DNA from: a virus | Strand: one strand, 5' to 3' | IMG/VR virus record: IMGVR_UViG_3300049491_001001 | Location: 1 to 41,470 of that record | DNA length: 41,470 nucleotides | Shown here: one piece after another, positions 27,428 through 38,774 of the stretch | How the letters are laid out: every line of letters begins with the position of its first letter | Position numbering within the stretch: position 1 is the stretch's first letter | The notes under the pieces: generated by a model | The model's database searches: none | What the model saw: only the letters and a program-made list of their open reading frames with translations | What the model was told of the DNA's origin: nothing | Program-made: the position numbers and the translations under genes

Positions 27428-27922
27428 TCAGACGCCGTACGGGTTGAGACCGTAGAATGTGTATGTGGCAGTGCCGGGGATATTGCTCGCCACGGTGACC
27501 CGGATGCGACGGATGTAGTTGGCGCTCGGGTCGGCCCGATAGTAGCGCTTTCCCGCATCGGTGTACTGATAGATCCACGTCACCGATGCATACTCGGTGT
27601 AGTTCGACGTACCATCTCCCCAGACATCGATGGCGATGTCGTCATACAGCACATTGGCGATGTTGTACGGGGCGGATGAGTCAAACTTCGCGACGATATA
27701 GTCGACCTTCGCGCCGTTTGCGCCAGAACAGTTGTTCGTGGAGTACGGGTCACAGTTCGTGTCGTCGAAGTTGACGGACACGTCGATGCGGCCCATGCCG
27801 AGATTCTGACAGGCGGACTGGCACCAGTCGCCGACAACGACGTTGTCAGCGGCCTGAGCGTTGCCGACCCCGAGGCCGAGGACCATGGCCAGACTGGCCA
27901 GGATAATTCCGATCTTGCGCAT
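27428..27922 (-). CDS. secreted protein, paralogous signal peptide to 28050-28514
   Basis: A 164-residue protein. MRKIGIILASLAMVLGLGVG then NAQA is a signal peptide; the mature domain is beta-rich with four cysteines (DWCQSACQN; DTNCDP; NNCSG) and ends YTFYGLNPYGV. The signal peptide differs from that of the 28514 gene at only a few positions, suggesting duplication of a secretion unit. ATG 27922 has AAGGAAA upstream. Likely an extracellular or envelope protein of unknown task. Confidence 0.8.
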   Translation of the reverse strand: MRKIGIILASLAMVLGLGVGNAQAADNVVVGDWCQSACQNLGMGRIDVSVNFDDTNCDPYSTNNCSGANGAKVDYIVAKFDSSAPYNIANVLYDDIAIDVWGDGTSNYTEYASVTWIYQYTDAGKRYYRADPSANYIRRIRVTVASNIPGTATYTFYGLNPYGV

Positions 27923-27933
27923 TCGATTTCCTT

Positions 27934-28053
27934 TCAGCGGGTGATGACGGGGGCGGAAGAGAACTCCCAGGATCTTGTACAACTGGATGCCCCGAGGAGC
28001 AGGACCGCCGCCAGGATCAGCAGTGCGATCGGTCGCCTGAGCTGAGCCGTCAC
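27934..28053 (-). CDS. 39-residue probable lipoprotein
   Basis: GTG 28053 overlaps the upstream stop (GTGA) and encodes (V/M)TAQLRRPIALLILAAVLL then LGASSCTRSWEFSSAPVITR. A basic start, a hydrophobic core and Cys after GASS form a lipobox-like end, so the mature lipopeptide would be only ~15 residues. It sits between two secreted-protein genes. Confidence 0.62.
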   Translation of the reverse strand: MTAQLRRPIALLILAAVLLLGASSCTRSWEFSSAPVITR

Positions 28054-28514
28054 GGAACGTCCTTGGTGACGATGCAACTAGCGGTGCTGGTCCCGACCCC
28101 ACCCTTGCGCTGCACCCTGATCTGTCCGAGGCCGCCGTTAGGCCACACGTAGTCGAAGGTGTTGATGTAGTAGCCGCCGGTGGAGTCCACGCTGTCGATC
28201 ACCCCGTTGCCGATGTTGAACCAGTTCAGCCAGAACCCGTTGTTGTTGTGGTCCCACACCTGAACCTGAATCTGGTTCAGCCTGGCCCGGGGATCGGTGT
28301 CCCAGGTGAGTCGATCGACCACCACGGTGTTCGGAGCCGATGTCCCGACGCCGCTGACATGCATCGTGATGAAGACGTACGACCGAGTACCCCCGGCGTA
28401 GCAGGAGTACGTCTCCGTGAATGTACCGTTTTCCGTGGCCTGGGCAGGCGTGGCCTGAATGCCGAGTCCGAGGACCAGAGCGATGGACGCCAGAATGGTG
28501 CCGATCTTGCGCAT
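28050..28514 (-). CDS. secreted beta-rich protein
   Basis: A 154-residue protein. MRKIGTILASIALVLGLGIQ then ATPAQA is a signal peptide; the mature part (FTETYSCYAGGTRSYVFITM; NQIQVQVWDHNNNGFWLNW; GQIRVQRKGGVGTSTASCIV) is a beta-sandwich-like domain with one likely disulfide (Cys near 58 and near 148). Similar signal to the 27922 gene. ATG 28514 with GAAGG upstream. Function unknown. Confidence 0.8.
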   Translation of the reverse strand: MRKIGTILASIALVLGLGIQATPAQATENGTFTETYSCYAGGTRSYVFITMHVSGVGTSAPNTVVVDRLTWDTDPRARLNQIQVQVWDHNNNGFWLNWFNIGNGVIDSVDSTGGYYINTFDYVWPNGGLGQIRVQRKGGVGTSTASCIVTKDVP

Positions 28515-28525
28515 GCCGCCTTCTT

Positions 28526-28627
28526 TCAGTAGTTCTTCGGATGGCGCGGACGTACCTGACGCGGGCGAATCTGCGGCAGTACGAACAAGAACGCCAGCGC
28601 GAGTGCGATGCTCAAGAATCCGTCCAT
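28526..28627 (-). CDS. 33-residue membrane peptide with basic tail
   Basis: ATG 28627 encodes MDGFLSIALALAFLFVLPQI followed by RPRQVRPRHPKNY: a hydrophobic span then a strongly basic, positive-inside tail. It begins three bases after the stop of the 213-residue gene, with AAGG upstream, and ends before the secreted-protein gene. Unknown role. Confidence 0.62.
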   Translation of the reverse strand: MDGFLSIALALAFLFVLPQIRPRQVRPRHPKNY

Positions 28628-28630
28628 GCA

Positions 28631-29272
28631 TCACACCTTAGTGGAAACTGACTCAGAGTCAAGCAGCGCTTTCCAATCTGTCCAGCTCAGCACATACACG
28701 CCGTGCTTCGCCGTCCAGGTGAGGAATTGCATCGGCTTGGCATCGATCCATGCACCGGAGACCAGAACGAGGCCGGGCGGCGTCGGCCAGCGCCCCCGGA
28801 TGAGCAGGCTGTCCACCGGGGCGGGGGGGCGGTGGCCGATCTGAACCCGCTTCCGCCGGTCCTCGGGAGTGGGCTCGCGCTCCTCCCAGAGCGGGCTGCG
28901 GGTCGGCTCGCCCGTCATGGCGATGTCGTACCCCCGGGCATAGGTCACCAGCAGCTCGGCGTCCGGGATGGCCAGGAGGAGTCTCAGGGCTTGCAGGGCC
29001 CCGGCTGGCTGGGCCGGTACGTGCCCGTCCGGGACCGGCGGGTAGACGATCCGGACCCTGGTCTTGAAGACGTCCAAGGAGCACCTGGTGGCCTTCAGGA
29101 CCGGCTCCGGCACCTCCGGCTCGGTCCAGGTGACGTGCTGCTCCGGCCACTGCCTCTTGCCGTAGGTGCGCTCGGTCGGGGTCACCGGCGTGCCCTGCAC
29201 CGGCGGGGGGGTGAACCGGGACGAGGTGACCTCAAGATCGGACTCAACCGGCTCGTCGAAGAAGCCGGTCAT
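28631..29272 (-). CDS. hypothetical protein
   Basis: A 213-residue protein without recognised domains. The first ~50 residues are Pro/Thr-rich and probably disordered (TSSRFTPPPVQGTPVTPTER). The middle contains LLLAIPDAELLVTYARGYDI, and the end is a small alpha/beta segment (GLVLVSGAWIDAKPMQFLTW). ATG 29272 overlaps the preceding stop (ATGA). Confidence 0.75.
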   Translation of the reverse strand: MTGFFDEPVESDLEVTSSRFTPPPVQGTPVTPTERTYGKRQWPEQHVTWTEPEVPEPVLKATRCSLDVFKTRVRIVYPPVPDGHVPAQPAGALQALRLLLAIPDAELLVTYARGYDIAMTGEPTRSPLWEEREPTPEDRRKRVQIGHRPPAPVDSLLIRGRWPTPPGLVLVSGAWIDAKPMQFLTWTAKHGVYVLSWTDWKALLDSESVSTKV

Positions 29273-33910: not shown

Positions 33911-34273
33911 GTGCGCTCGCTACGTAGTTCCGCCGATCCGGACCGCATCCTGGCCAGGGCGACGGACGACAACGCCACCGTGACATGCTTCCGCTGTCCG
34001 GATGACCTGTGGCATGACCTGCACGGACTCCGTGAGCGACTCGGGACGCACGGCATCTCCGGCGTAATACGGATCGTCGCCCAGATCGGCGTCATTCAAC
34101 TTCTCAGACAACTAGATGCCCAGGACGCGGGAGGCGCGACGATGATCACGATCGGAGAGAGGCTCGGGCGTGGCGATGACGCCGAGGTGGTCACGGTCGA
34201 CGAACGGCTCGATCCGCCGGTCGCGGTCACGGCGGACGATCTGGCGGCGGCCATCTCTGCGCTGCTCGCCTGA
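33911..34273 (+). CDS. ribbon-helix-helix-like DNA-binding regulator
   Basis: A 120-residue protein. ATVTCFRCPDDLWHDLHGLR then ERLGTHGISGVIRIVAQIGV is a strand followed by two helices, the pattern of RHH (CopG/Arc) regulators; the C-terminal half is an acidic helix. It diverges from the early leftward operon and leads the replication genes, so it probably controls the shared promoter region and possibly copy number. I chose GTG 33911 (GAGGGG seven bases upstream) over GTG 33878, which lacks a site. Confidence 0.7.
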   Translation: MRSLRSSADPDRILARATDDNATVTCFRCPDDLWHDLHGLRERLGTHGISGVIRIVAQIGVIQLLRQLDAQDAGGATMITIGERLGRGDDAEVVTVDERLDPPVAVTADDLAAAISALLA

Positions 34274-36249
34274 TGGCGGGATGGGAACCGCCGGGCAATG
34301 CCCGGGAGCGCGCCATCTCTCTGGCCCAGAAGGGCTATGCGGTCTTCCGGGTAAAGGTTGAGGTCGGGCCGGACGGAACACGCGGGCGAGTTCGCCCCCT
34401 GGGTAAGTGGCGCGAGATCTCGACATCCGATGTCGCCCGTGTCGCCGATTGGGATTGGAAAGGGCTATGGCCTGCCATCGATACCGGCAAGAGCGGTGTC
34501 GTCGTCGTCGATCTCGATACCAAGAACGGGGTCGACGGCCCGGCGGAATGGAAGGGGGCGGGCGCCGGGAGTTATGGGCGCGCAATCGTCACGACACCGT
34601 CCGGTGTCCATCTGTTCTATCGCGCCGATCCGGAGCGGGCGATCGGGAACGATTCGACCGGCAAGGTAGGAAGGGGGATCGACGTCAAGGGCGTGGGTGG
34701 GTTCGTCTTCGCCCACGGCTGGGTGGAGAAGGTCGCGGACCTGCCCGAGCTGCCTGACGTCGTGCGCCAGCGGGTAGGCACCATCTCGGCCACCGCCCCC
34801 CCGGCCCTGGTTCCTGATCGGATCGAAGCCCCGGCCCGGGTGTTCACGCCCGGCGCTGCGGAGGAGTTCTGCCGCCCGGCCATGGCCGCGCTGGCCGATG
34901 CCCGGCCCGGGGAGGTCAATGCCCGGTTCGGCGCGGCGGCGCGGCAGATCTATCACTTCGTCCCGGCCTTCTGGACCAAGGACGACGCGGACTCCTGGTT
35001 GCGCTCACGGCTGGCCGTGGCCGATCGACGCAACGGCACCACCGATCCGACCACGTGGTCCTGGTCGGCGGAGCAGCAACTGGCCACGGCCTGGAGCGCC
35101 TCGCGCCGGGACTGGCTGGCCGAGGGCGGGGCGCCGAGCGGCGGGGCCGGGGAGGGGGCAGTGGCCGACTCCTGGACGCCGATCGACATGGCTCCGGTGG
35201 TCTCCGGCGAGCACTCCTCGATCATGGCCGCCATCGGGGCTCGGGACGATGGGGTCAGGTTGCTCTACCCCGGGCGTGAGCACGTCGTGGCCTCCGAACC
35301 GGAGGCGGGCAAGACGTGGCTGTTGATGCACATCGTGCGGACCGTGCTGGCCGAGGCCGGGACGGTGGTCTACATCGACTTCGAGGACGACGAGGGCGGC
35401 ATCGGCGGCCGGATGCTGGCCGCAGGCATCCCCGGGGAATCAATAGCCGATCTGAGTAGATTCCGGTACGTCCGTCCCGAGAGCGTGCCGACCAGCGAGC
35501 AGTACGCCGCGCTCCTCGACTTCGCGGGCTCCGGGCCGACGCTCGTCTGCCTGGACGGGGTGACGGAGGGGTACTCCCTGTTCGCCGGTGAGGTGAATTC
35601 GCAGGAGAGCGCCACGGCCTGGCGCCGCACCTTCGTCCGGCCCGCGATGAACGTCGGAGCGGCCACTCTCGCCACCGACCACGTCGTGAAGAACAAGGAT
35701 TCGAGGGGCGGCTACGCCATCGGCGCCCAGCACAAGAAGGCCGGGCTCAACGGGGTGCTGTTCGAGCTGGAGAACATCGATCCGTTCGGCATCGGGCTGG
35801 CCGGGCGGTCCAAGATCTACATCCGCAAGGACCGGAACGGCGACCTGAGACGGCACGGCGTCCGGGAGAAAGGCTCGCTCGCCACCTACTTCGCCGACCT
35901 GAGCCTTAGTCCGTCCACCGACCCCTACTCCGATGCTCCGGTGCTGGAGCTGAAACCGCCCCTGCTCGATCCGGATCACGACACCGATCCGCTCGCCTGG
36001 ATCAAGGCGGAGATCGTCAGGCGCCTGTCCGAGCGCGGTCCGCTGACCGCCAACGAGTTGCGCGAAGCCGTCACCGGAGCCAAGGGGCGGATCGATGAGG
36101 CATCGCACGCGCTGCACGCCGCCGGACTCATCTGCCGCTCTGAACACCTCTCGCCGAGCGGAAGACGGTTGCTTCCCTGGCATCTGCCCGGGCAGTGTGC
36201 AGGCTCGCTGCATCCCGAAGGAGTGCCTGCACCGCGCGGGAGGCTCTAG
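34273..36249 (+). CDS. primase-polymerase / RepA-type helicase
   Basis: A 658-residue replication protein with two parts. Residues ~10-165 are an archaeo-eukaryotic-type primase-polymerase: VVVVDLDTK (Asp80, Asp82), TPSGVHLFYR (His113) and DVKGVGGFVFA. Residues ~330-530 are a RecA-like helicase: Walker A SEPEAGKTWL (~341-350), YIDFEDDEGG (~368) and LVCLDGVTE. A C-terminal winged-helix-like end follows. It should prime and unwind DNA at the phage origin; the candidate origin begins as the gene ends. Confidence 0.9.
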   Translation: MAGWEPPGNARERAISLAQKGYAVFRVKVEVGPDGTRGRVRPLGKWREISTSDVARVADWDWKGLWPAIDTGKSGVVVVDLDTKNGVDGPAEWKGAGAGSYGRAIVTTPSGVHLFYRADPERAIGNDSTGKVGRGIDVKGVGGFVFAHGWVEKVADLPELPDVVRQRVGTISATAPPALVPDRIEAPARVFTPGAAEEFCRPAMAALADARPGEVNARFGAAARQIYHFVPAFWTKDDADSWLRSRLAVADRRNGTTDPTTWSWSAEQQLATAWSASRRDWLAEGGAPSGGAGEGAVADSWTPIDMAPVVSGEHSSIMAAIGARDDGVRLLYPGREHVVASEPEAGKTWLLMHIVRTVLAEAGTVVYIDFEDDEGGIGGRMLAAGIPGESIADLSRFRYVRPESVPTSEQYAALLDFAGSGPTLVCLDGVTEGYSLFAGEVNSQESATAWRRTFVRPAMNVGAATLATDHVVKNKDSRGGYAIGAQHKKAGLNGVLFELENIDPFGIGLAGRSKIYIRKDRNGDLRRHGVREKGSLATYFADLSLSPSTDPYSDAPVLELKPPLLDPDHDTDPLAWIKAEIVRRLSERGPLTANELREAVTGAKGRIDEASHALHAAGLICRSEHLSPSGRRLLPWHLPGQCAGSLHPEGVPAPRGRL

Positions 36250-36257
36250 AACCGCCC

Positions 36258-36302
36258 GAACCGCCGGAACCGCCCCAAGATCATGGGCGGTTCCGGCGGT
36301 TC
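36258..36302 (+). repeat. 18-bp perfect hairpin after the primase gene
   Basis: GAACCGCCGGAACCGCCC pairs perfectly with 36285-36302 around CAAGATCAT. It is the strongest stem in the window and begins nine bases after the primase-helicase stop, so it may also end that transcript. It is the first of the iterated elements. Confidence 0.85.
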
Positions 36303-36442
36303 CAGGTGGGACTCCTTCGAGACCGTTCCGGAACTGCGACGAACCGGGTCATTTCGGCCACCGCCCCCCCTGCCCCCGGCGTCTTTGGCGGGGTTGTTGA
36401 TCAAGAGAACCGCCCCAAGATCACGGCGGTCTTACACACAGG

Positions 36443-36451
36443 TTATCCACA
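36443..36451 (+). promoter_or_regulatory. perfect DnaA box
   Basis: TTATCCACA matches the standard high-affinity bacterial DnaA site exactly. It lies between the second and third hairpins of the candidate origin. A single 9-mer can occur by chance, but its location is telling. Confidence 0.65.
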
Positions 36452-36707
36452 GGAACCGCCCGAAGCGCCGTGATCATGGGGCGCTTCGAAAAGGGCTTCT
36501 GACCTGCGGTTTCTTCTGAAGTAGAGGAGGAACCGCCCGAAGCGCCCCAAGATCACGGCGCTTCTTCCTTTGGAAGCGCCCGAACCGCCGCCCCCCTTAA
36601 GGGGGCGGCGGGGCGCTTCTTGTCCGGTTCGGCGGAGCGGTCGTTCGGTGGTTGTTCGGAACGGAAATCAGTGTCATGATTCGCTCATGGTGGATTTGGA
36701 GAAGGAG

Positions 36708-37121
36708 ATGGTCGCCCGGGAGCGGGTCGCGAGCGGGCCGGGCGGAGAGGGGGGGCTGGCCGAGGTGAGACAGGTGCCGCCCGGGACGCGATGCGTCGGG
36801 TGCTCGGTGGATGGGTGCTTGGCGGCCGATGTCGCGCCGAATCTGTTCGGGGAGTACCCCCGCCGGGGCGTGAGGGTGCGGGCCGCGTGGTGTGCCGCGT
36901 GGGGGGCGCTGGCCGAGGGTCCGGTTCGCCGGGCAGCGCTGATCGTTCTGATGATGAGCGCGGGTAACGTTGAGCGTTCAACCGCGAGCAACATCCTTGC
37001 CGTGGCGGTCCGGGTCGGAGCGCTCGGCCGGATCCGGCCGGGCAAGTTGGTGGACATGGAGCTTTTCCGGCGCGACGTCACGCCGGTCGGCGTCCCGGCG
37101 CAGGAGGTGAGCGGGGCGTGA
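36708..37121 (+). CDS. small HTH-like protein between primase and helicase genes
   Basis: A 137-residue protein. TRCVGCSVDGCLAADVAPNL has three cysteines that may bind zinc; RVRAAWCAAWGALAEGPVRR to NVERSTASNILAVAVRVGAL resembles a helix-turn-helix. Start chosen at ATG 36708 because GGAG lies six bases upstream; ATG 36687 is in frame but has no site. Overlap with the helicase start (GTGA) suggests a linked role in replication or its control. Confidence 0.68.
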   Translation: MVARERVASGPGGEGGLAEVRQVPPGTRCVGCSVDGCLAADVAPNLFGEYPRRGVRVRAAWCAAWGALAEGPVRRAALIVLMMSAGNVERSTASNILAVAVRVGALGRIRPGKLVDMELFRRDVTPVGVPAQEVSGA

Positions 37122-38731
37122 GTGCCGGTATCGCGTTGCGGCCTTACCAGGCCGAGGCGATCAAGGCCGTGGAAGCCCGGTGGGAGTCCCACCCGGGTCA
37201 GCGCACCGCTGTGGTGCTGCCGACCGGGACCGGCAAGACGGTGATGTTCGCCCACCTGCTGGCGCGTTCCGCCCATCGGGGTAGGGGGCTGGTGCTGGTC
37301 CATCGGGACGAGCTGATCCGGCAGGCCGTTTCCAAGATCAGGACGGTAGCTCCGGAGCTGTCGGTCGGCGTGATCAAGGCCCAGGAGAACGATCTTGATT
37401 CTGACGTGATCGTCGCCTCGGTCCAGACCCTGAGTCGTCCGGCACGGCTGGAGGCGCTGTGCGCCGATCCTAGGCCAGTGGATCTTGGAGTGGTGGACGA
37501 GTGCCACCATGCCACTGCCGCCAGCTACAGGAAGATTCTAAATCGATTTAGTGAAGCCCGCTGGGTCGGCGTAACCGCCACGCTGGCCCGTGGGGACGGC
37601 GTGCGGCTCTCGGACGTGTGGGATCACGTGGCCTACCGGGCCGACGTGCTGACCATGATCCGTTCTGGTTGGCTGGCGGACGTCCGGGGTATCGCCGTCC
37701 GGGTCGAAGATCTCGATCTTGAGTCACTGAAGCACCGGGCTGGTGACATCGATCCGCATGATCTTGCTCGGGCGCTGCACGAGTCGCAAGCCGTTACCGC
37801 TGCCGTGAAGGCCTACGCCGAGCACTGCCCGGGGCATCCGGCGATCCTGTTCGCCCCGACCGTGGCCTCTGCTCATGAGTTCGGCGAGGCCTTCACGGCT
37901 TCGGGCTATCGGTCCGCCGTCGTCTCGGGCGAGACCGATGCTGATGAGCGCCGGGCGATGATTCGGGACTTCGAGGCCGGTCGGATCGACGTCCTGTGCA
38001 ATTGCATGGTGCTCACGGAGGGTTTCGACTCGCCCCGGGCATCCACAGTGATCATTGCCAGGGCTACGGAGAGCGCTCCGCTCTACGTCCAGATGGTCGG
38101 GCGCGTCCTGCGCCCGTTCCCGGGCAAGCGGCAGGCTCTGGTGCTGGACCTGGTGGGAGCTTCCCGGGCGCACGCCCTGGCGACCTTGAGCACGCTGTCC
38201 GGTGCCCGGCCGATCACGCTCCGCCCGGGGCAGTCCTTCATCGAAGCGGCGCTTGAGGATGAGGCCACGTCGGAGCAGCGTCTCGCCGAGCTGCTCCGGC
38301 AGTACGAATCGCTCATGACATCGGAAGATGTCGACCTGTTCCATGGTTCCCGTCAGCGATGGCTTCAGACCCGGGCCGGTTATTGGTTCATCCCGGCCGG
38401 TGACCGATTCATCGCATTGCTGCCCTCTGATGACGACGGGTACGACGTGGCGTCCTTCGGCAAGTCCCGGGGTGGGGGATGGATCGCCCAGGGCGTCCCG
38501 GATCTCACTCTCGGAATGGCGACCGGTGAGGCCGACATCACTCCGGAGGAGATGGTGCTGTCCCGCAAGGCTGCGCAGTGGCGCAAGCGCAAGGCTTCGC
38601 AACAGGCCGTTGAGTACGCGGCCAGGCTCAAGATGGATGTGCCGGAGAATCCTCGCTCCGGTGAGGTCTCGGATCTCATTTCGATCGGTCTGGCCTCCGC
38701 CCGGATCGACCGGGCAATGGCCCGGGCCTGA
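37118..38731 (+). CDS. DEAD/DEAH-box SF2 helicase
   Basis: A 537-residue helicase. Motifs in order: ALRPYQAEAI (Q-like), Walker A LPTGTGKT (34-41), DECH (127-130), GVTAT (151-155), LTEGFDSPRAS (motif V) and QMVGRVLRPFPGK (motif VI). It belongs with the phage SF2 enzymes thought to help replication or recombination. The C-terminal ~150 residues are an added domain of unknown role. GTG 37118 overlaps the preceding stop; a strong terminator follows. Confidence 0.92.
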   Translation: MSAGIALRPYQAEAIKAVEARWESHPGQRTAVVLPTGTGKTVMFAHLLARSAHRGRGLVLVHRDELIRQAVSKIRTVAPELSVGVIKAQENDLDSDVIVASVQTLSRPARLEALCADPRPVDLGVVDECHHATAASYRKILNRFSEARWVGVTATLARGDGVRLSDVWDHVAYRADVLTMIRSGWLADVRGIAVRVEDLDLESLKHRAGDIDPHDLARALHESQAVTAAVKAYAEHCPGHPAILFAPTVASAHEFGEAFTASGYRSAVVSGETDADERRAMIRDFEAGRIDVLCNCMVLTEGFDSPRASTVIIARATESAPLYVQMVGRVLRPFPGKRQALVLDLVGASRAHALATLSTLSGARPITLRPGQSFIEAALEDEATSEQRLAELLRQYESLMTSEDVDLFHGSRQRWLQTRAGYWFIPAGDRFIALLPSDDDGYDVASFGKSRGGGWIAQGVPDLTLGMATGEADITPEEMVLSRKAAQWRKRKASQQAVEYAARLKMDVPENPRSGEVSDLISIGLASARIDRAMARA

Positions 38732-38740
38732 CGCACAGAA

Positions 38741-38774
38741 GGGCCCGGTACCGGATCTCTCCGGTACCGGGCCC
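38741..38774. terminator. bidirectional terminator, 15-bp perfect stem
   Basis: GGGCCCGGTACCGGA (38741-38755) and its exact complement (38760-38774) flank a TCTC loop between two converging genes (stops at 38731 and 38792). T-runs are weak on both sides, but the stem is perfect and the location is that of a shared terminator. Confidence 0.85.

Follow-up and report, generated by a model that had tools for sequence, protein, structure and literature searches.

A cluster of short repeats and hairpins directly behind a replication gene is, with high probability, the origin from which this phage replicates, and initiator binding, helicase loading, melting and priming would all take place there. 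The window, i.e. the whole stretch of DNA analyzed, is an IMG/VR virus record of 41,470 bases, in which the cluster shows the arrangement expected of an iteron origin: short direct repeats grouped beside a candidate initiator gene. Similar arrays, each with its own repeat unit, sit at the same position behind related genes in phages, integrated elements and plasmids of Actinobacteria, and the unit changes together with one helix of the upstream protein.

Repeats and hairpins in the window

The gene that ends at the array encodes a 658-aa protein (Table 1) with Pfam matches to Prim-Pol (PF09250, E 5.6e-13) and AAA_25 (PF13481, E 3.8e-9). An AlphaFold2 model of the whole protein reached a pLDDT of about 90 or more in the AAA and C-terminal parts and was poor in the Prim-Pol part, and the AAA part matched KaiC/RecA folds in a fold comparison (Z ~20 and an rmsd of ~3 over ~210 residues). 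A sequence comparison of the C-terminal 89 aa yielded no solved structure below E 0.6. Modeled alone from 42 sequences, the C-terminal domain consists of three helices and a small wing (mean pLDDT 81.6), and the structures nearest to it are those of winged-helix domains (Z up to 10.9, with an rmsd of 1.5 across 65 residues). The C-terminal end of the protein is predicted on this basis to be a winged helix, which is a very common fold.

The octamer GAASCGCC occurs 24 times on both strands of the entire window, compared to 5.8 expected, and 15 of these copies belong to the array. Adjacent copies follow one another at the 9-base spacing given in a preliminary description of this DNA, and the first GAACCGCC copy overlaps the stop codon (TAG) of the upstream gene, the shared G being base 36249. 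Nine copies of GAACCGCC are found in the cluster, whereas 1000 dinucleotide shuffles yielded a maximum of six. Perfect-arm hairpins (arms of at least 8, loops of 3-14) were similarly in excess, with four non-overlapping ones within 36249-36640 vs. a mean of 0.17 and a maximum of two in 1000 dinucleotide shuffles, while CAAGATCA occurs three times in the same interval and in none of 1000 shuffles. The hairpin cluster at 36249-36619 is real.

The repeats of the array form five hairpins, four of which had been described as sharing the loop CAAGATCAY. This loop is exact in three (36276, 36416, and 36548), while the fourth (36470) carries an inverted variant, GTGATCATG, which is the reverse of CATGATCAC and one base off the CAAGATCAY loop. 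It was also claimed that both arms of the stems change together. There are indeed two stem types among the five hairpins, but the switch between them concerns a single octamer position (base 4, C or G), which by itself is weak covariation. The right arm of hairpin 2 (36407) is imperfect (GGCGGTCT), and TTCCTTTG comes after hairpin 4. Hairpin 5 lacks the CAAGATCAY loop, having CTTAA in its place, and it is the 64-base segment with the lowest folding energy in the array. The perfect DnaA box reported among the octamers is present, and the primase-polymerase gene reported to end directly upstream is the Prim-Pol and AAA_25 gene mentioned above. The cumulative GC skew had no turning point at the array, and a DNA similarity search with 36200-36680 against phages returned no match.

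Table 1. Coordinates of the array, its hairpins and the neighboring genes in the window.
Feature	Position	Strand	Basis
Replication protein, 658 aa: Prim-Pol (N-terminal), AAA_25 (central), predicted winged helix (C-terminal, about residues 573-640)	34273..36249	+	Pfam, AlphaFold2 model, fold comparison
GAASCGCC array, 15 copies (10 direct, 5 inverted), 9-bp steps	36249..36619		counted, shuffle-tested
Hairpin 1: perfect 18-bp arms made of two GAACCGCC units; loop CAAGATCAT	36258..36302	+	shuffle-tested
Hairpin 2: one GAACCGCC unit, right arm imperfect; CAAGATCAC within loop	36407..36430	+	
DnaA-box-like TTATCCACA, perfect	36443..36451	+	
Hairpin 3: GAACCGCC-GAAGCGCC unit pair; 9-bp arms (36461-36488); loop GTGATCATGG, inverted variant	36453..36488	+	
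Hairpin 4: GAACCGCC-GAAGCGCC unit pair; 8-bp arms; loop CCAAGATCAC	36530..36564	+	
Hairpin 5: GAAGCGCC-GAACCGCC, GC stem, CTTAA loop, inverted unit; counterpart of the family's central hairpin	36573..36619	+	
DEAD/DEAH-type helicase gene, downstream of array	37118..38731	+	context

Three further repeats were encountered elsewhere in the window. A perfect 15-bp inverted repeat with a TCTC loop (38741-38774) lies between the convergent helicase and DUF932 genes and is likely a two-way terminator. Near the left end of the record (77-186) is a 55-bp tandem duplication whose copies are 98% identical, and at 27428-28634 there are two adjacent small ORFs with similar signal-like N-termini, together with a 68-bp DNA repeat of 72% identity.

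Arrays behind related genes

A first search for relatives of the 658-aa protein identified four in viruses and two small plasmids, the 7.9-kb p-XQ-29-C of Streptomyces griseoaurantiacus and pKRAD02 of Kineococcus radiotolerans. In all of these cases, short direct and inverted repeats were clustered in the DNA behind the gene, with a unit particular to that locus, and both plasmids carry the array beside the AAA gene. A profile search then provided 50 genome loci, all of whose titles name an actinobacterial host, together with the viral part of the family sample, which consists of the 80 listed of 122 viral relatives. Of 135 genes listed, four were dropped before counting due to a broken frame (L078 and L130) or the lack of a stop codon (L080 and L107), and L009 and L007, the latter being the contig of L153, were excluded. 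The 131 usable genes were reduced to 87 representatives at 80% amino acid identity, of which 83 had the full window of flanking sequence. AAA_25 was found in 85 of the 87 members, a DnaB N-terminal domain in 20, a fused Prim-Pol in 14, and Toprim in two, while upstream ORFs contributed a Prim-Pol in at least eight cases (40 scanned of 53 found by a length rule). From these counts, the array goes with the AAA and winged-helix protein and not with Prim-Pol alone.

The arrays are tied to the stop codon. At least four copies of one 8-mer were present at -100 to +300 of the stop in 77% of the 83 relatives of the AAA part, but in only 0-6% of relatives for windows 400-2000 bp off, and at least two hairpins were present in 84% vs. 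5-18% in windows farther off. Fewer than four copies were found for 20 of the 87 representatives, one having only 115 bp of sequence. The units themselves differ by element (CTCGTCCC, CGTTCCCC, GTGTCCC, CACAACG, and others). Position, the unit-loop-inverted-unit design and an AT-containing loop center are constant among the relatives, whereas the unit is variable. The iteron-type origin that the preliminary description placed beside an AEP gene gains support from these position-conserved arrays in phages, chromosomal elements and the two plasmids. DnaA-box-like sites occurred in the 300 bp after the stop in five of the 83 relatives and in 0-2 for the other bins. Of nine cultured or recorded phages that encode a distant relative of the protein, an array at the gene was seen in MinS1 and Dagobah only; the other seven are without an array of five or more copies there. 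These absences, the 20 representatives with fewer than four copies, the rarity of DnaA boxes and the lack of a GC-skew turning point at the array weigh against the origin.

Inspection of the printed arrays revealed a recurring design in which one or two units are followed by a short AT-centered spacer and then by the inverted unit(s). Among the 70 arrays with at least five copies of a 7-mer, a unit faces its own inverted copy within 34 bases in 69, compared to 13.3 expected from scrambled units. The central loops vary (CTTAAG, CTATAG, CTTTAG, CTTCGG, and others) and are often CTWWAG. Of the 83 relatives, 29 have this motif in the first 300 bp past the stop, vs. 0-3 of 77-87 per other bin, and it is upon this position profile that the claim rests; its presence in 12 of 69 central gaps (0.36 expected) is supporting only, as the choice of the longest pairing picked wrong partners in some arrays. 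The counterpart of this central hairpin in the window is hairpin 5 with its CTTAA loop, rather than the CAAGATCAY hairpins. Consequently, the earlier notion of a fixed loop with changing stems holds across the family, although the loop and the hairpin concerned are not those originally named. Loops of 3-6 bases gave no support for known stable DNA mini-loops (1 of 48 inside the arrays vs. 1 of 120 outside). CAAGATCACGGCA was found near the arrays of both L070 and L073.

Several individual loci merit separate mention. In Mycolicibacillus trivialis (L044), two adjacent arrays with the units CGTGTCC and CGGTTCCC lie ~130-330 bases past the stop, each with an AT-loop hairpin, as if two origin types stood side by side. 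Microbacterium phage Rasputia (L162) has an inverted DnaA-box-like pair (TTATCCAC) and no array ~141 bases past the stop of its primase/polymerase/helicase gene. Microcystis phage MinS1 (L159) has an Lsr2 gene and an actinobacterial-type array, even though it is recorded from a cyanobacterium, and its recorded host may deserve a check. On two Prim-pol plasmids, one of Pseudonocardia broussonetiae (L168, 6420-6730) and pCM32 (L169, 6613-6860), the repeats follow a second replication gene that Pfam does not assign to AAA_25, this gene being D5-like in one and of no family in the other; judging by these two plasmids, such a placement of repeats may extend beyond the AAA_25 family. Repeat clusters also appeared at loci of the downstream helicase (L015-L025), two of which were inspected: that of L021 was rejected as an array because it is a repetitive coding stretch, and that of L018 looks like such a coding stretch as well.

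The probable recognition helix, the repeat unit and alternative roles

The 70 arrays with at least five copies were also used to ask which part of the protein follows the unit, one of the proteins having gaps at helix 3 of the winged helix. When unit distance was regressed on protein distances, helix 3 had a standardized coefficient of 0.381, which was equaled in 0 of 2000 permutations, whereas the AAA part had 0.208 (7 of 2000), helices 1-2 had 0.079 (280), and the wing had 0.035 (543). Helix 3 is therefore the best predictor of the repeat among the parts of the protein, with a permutation test that removes shared descent only in part. For neighbors with <60% AAA identity, the mean unit distance was 0.319 when chosen by helix 3 and 0.338 when chosen by the AAA part, and units were within one change for 26 of 70 vs. 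15 of 70, respectively. Among such distant neighbors, helix 3 does only modestly better than overall similarity. Particular pairings were recognizable as well: TCGTCC repeats go with [KR]A..[IVT]R helices in most cases, CGAACCG with [ST].ERIA, and CCCTGCC with GNA.IDW. MinS1, which was outside the regression set, has the helix 3 KASTIRLALELL, nearest to proteins of the TCGTCCC type, and carries ACCTCGTC repeats. Overall, the evidence for a coupling of helix 3 and repeat is good but not final, and the joint change of unit and helix 3 suggests that what is read is the repeat itself.

Helix-3 coupling and array position would look alike if the upstream protein bound the array solely for control, i.e. 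copy number, autoregulation, incompatibility or partition, with replication starting elsewhere. Iterons often act in copy control too, and control alone is the foremost alternative to the origin, albeit a rather improbable one. Against it stand the presence of the array beside the gene in small plasmids and the behavior of the Streptomyces plasmid pWTY27, in which replication was lost upon deletion of the array and regained once the 300-bp region was restored (PMC3583192).

The preliminary description had instead proposed that the CAAGATCAY loop, exposed in an extruded or single-stranded hairpin, is recognized by some protein or nucleic acid. The three exact loops and the inverted variant, 0 of which arose in 1000 shuffles, speak for this proposal. 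However, CAAGATCA was not enriched in the relatives, with occurrences in 4 of 82 at the place of the array vs. 0-3 of about 76-86 in other 300-bp bins, hairpin 5 has no such loop, and the unit varies with helix 3. Likewise, the loop of the long inverted repeat in pWTY27 is left unprotected by RepA (PMC3583192). We consider loop reading to be decidedly unlikely. Even less probable is a role of the hairpins as terminators of transcription, which the preliminary description named as one that would overturn the origin if they had no effect on replication, or as regulatory RNA structures behind the gene. The hairpins do sit past a stop codon, with TTCCTTTG following hairpin 4, but a terminator scan found none at the array, and none of the 48 perfect hairpins among the 87 representatives had at least five T in the 8 bases past the stem. 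Furthermore, no Rfam family matched at the gathering score (sub-threshold matches only), hairpin energies had no preference for the gene strand (30 lower, 35 higher), and neither direct copies of the arms nor a unit that tracks a protein helix is necessary for a terminator. Palindromic GC-rich repeats of such size are known in bacteria, but the arrival here of a palindrome of the REP/MITE kind, mobile or spread across the host genome, is barely credible, as the exact unit and loop were found as a cluster nowhere else among viral contigs and as single copies in only three others, where they appear from the reading of the sequence to lie inside coding regions, and as the arrays are tied to the stop codon of one gene in unrelated hosts with different units.

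Proposed initiation model and known systems

The array is likely an origin, and we envisage that the 658-aa protein would bind the GAASCGCC repeats via its C-terminal winged helix, that its KaiC/RecA-like AAA part would assemble there as a helicase and open the DNA, and that its Prim-Pol part would lay primers. The point of opening and loading would likely be the central double-repeat hairpin with the short AT-containing loop (hairpin 5), and the facing units could let two helicase rings load, for two forks, while the CAAGATCAY hairpins may be an extension of the array in this phage. Beyond the anatomy and the helix-repeat coupling, we infer this mechanism, including binding, ring loading, melting at the loop, priming and direction, from pWTY27 (PMC3583192) and from the SaPI and SCCmec initiators (PMC7581432). 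A broader proposal, for which we would claim somewhat less than even likelihood, is that actinobacterial phages, integrated elements and plasmids share a self-sufficient replication cassette, in which an AAA_25 helicase-initiator has a winged-helix reader that can be exchanged and is directly followed by matching repeats. In such a cassette, the array would surround a hairpin with a constant AT loop and changing arms, repeat and helix 3 would change together to create many mutually blind origin types, and the strands would open at the loop, where Prim-Pol, or a DnaB-N/Toprim partner, would start.

If true, this would supply origins for a large set of phages and mobile elements of Actinobacteria, for which the literature found names replication genes but hardly any origins. 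The array is more general than the window alone shows, having relatives in phages and plasmids of soil bacteria. With a single recognition helix tracking a repeat of 7-8 bases, there would be a readable protein-DNA code, from which one could predict which elements are compatible within a cell and derive orthogonal replicons for Streptomyces and its relatives. It also becomes testable whether the hairpin itself, beyond the repeats, is part of initiation. Origins of such form (AAA_25 and winged helix, exchangeable repeat, central hairpin) were not found as a family in the open PMC literature, nor were experiments on the AAA_25 and winged-helix family. A paper on pMEA300 RepAM reportedly describes repeats at its origin, and such arrays may have been described earlier.

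In Rep_3 iteron plasmids, winged-helix domains read direct repeats with a DnaA box nearby. Unlike the Rep_3 (PF01051) initiators, the candidate initiator here bears its own helicase-like and primase domains; only Prim-Pol and AAA_25 were found in the window protein and no Rep_3 among the families of the 87 members. The pairing of a prim-pol with a replication gene resembles the AICE RepPP modules of actinobacterial mobile elements, such as SLP1 SCO4617-SCO4618, a likeness to SCO4618 by description, and the accessible part of that source describes no origin repeats (PMC3218068). A repeat origin downstream of a helicase gene is likewise found in the SaPI Rep/ori and SCCmec Cch2/ori systems, in which the initiator helicase uses its C-terminal domain to bind iterons that lie immediately behind the gene encoding it, a primase acts with that helicase, and priming at SCCmec occurs in the repeats (PMC7581432). 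The same text compares these helicases with MCM-type 3’-5’ helicases (PMC7581432), whereas the motor here is AAA_25 (85 of 87 members) with a KaiC/RecA fold, alongside a Prim-Pol primase. Among tested cases, pWTY27 (GU226194) comes closest. Its prim-pol gene repB and repA (522 aa) precede 300 bp of non-coding DNA that contain 8-bp direct repeats and one long inverted repeat. Replication depends on this region, to which RepA binds; within the long inverted repeat, everything but the loop is protected by RepA, and the authors propose that RepA recognizes a stem-loop (PMC3583192). The phage shares with this plasmid a Prim-pol and a second replication function, an array directly downstream and a long inverted repeat of units, and the requirement for the plasmid array adds support to the iteron-type origin of the preliminary description. 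This likeness is one of layout, pWTY27 being one plasmid with one unit (GTGGGAAC) and a RepA called hypothetical, and the available parts of the report mention no phage, unit swapping or protein-helix coupling (PMC3583192). In kind, the array is likely an iteron origin, in an AAA_25 and winged-helix form with an exchangeable repeat and a central hairpin.
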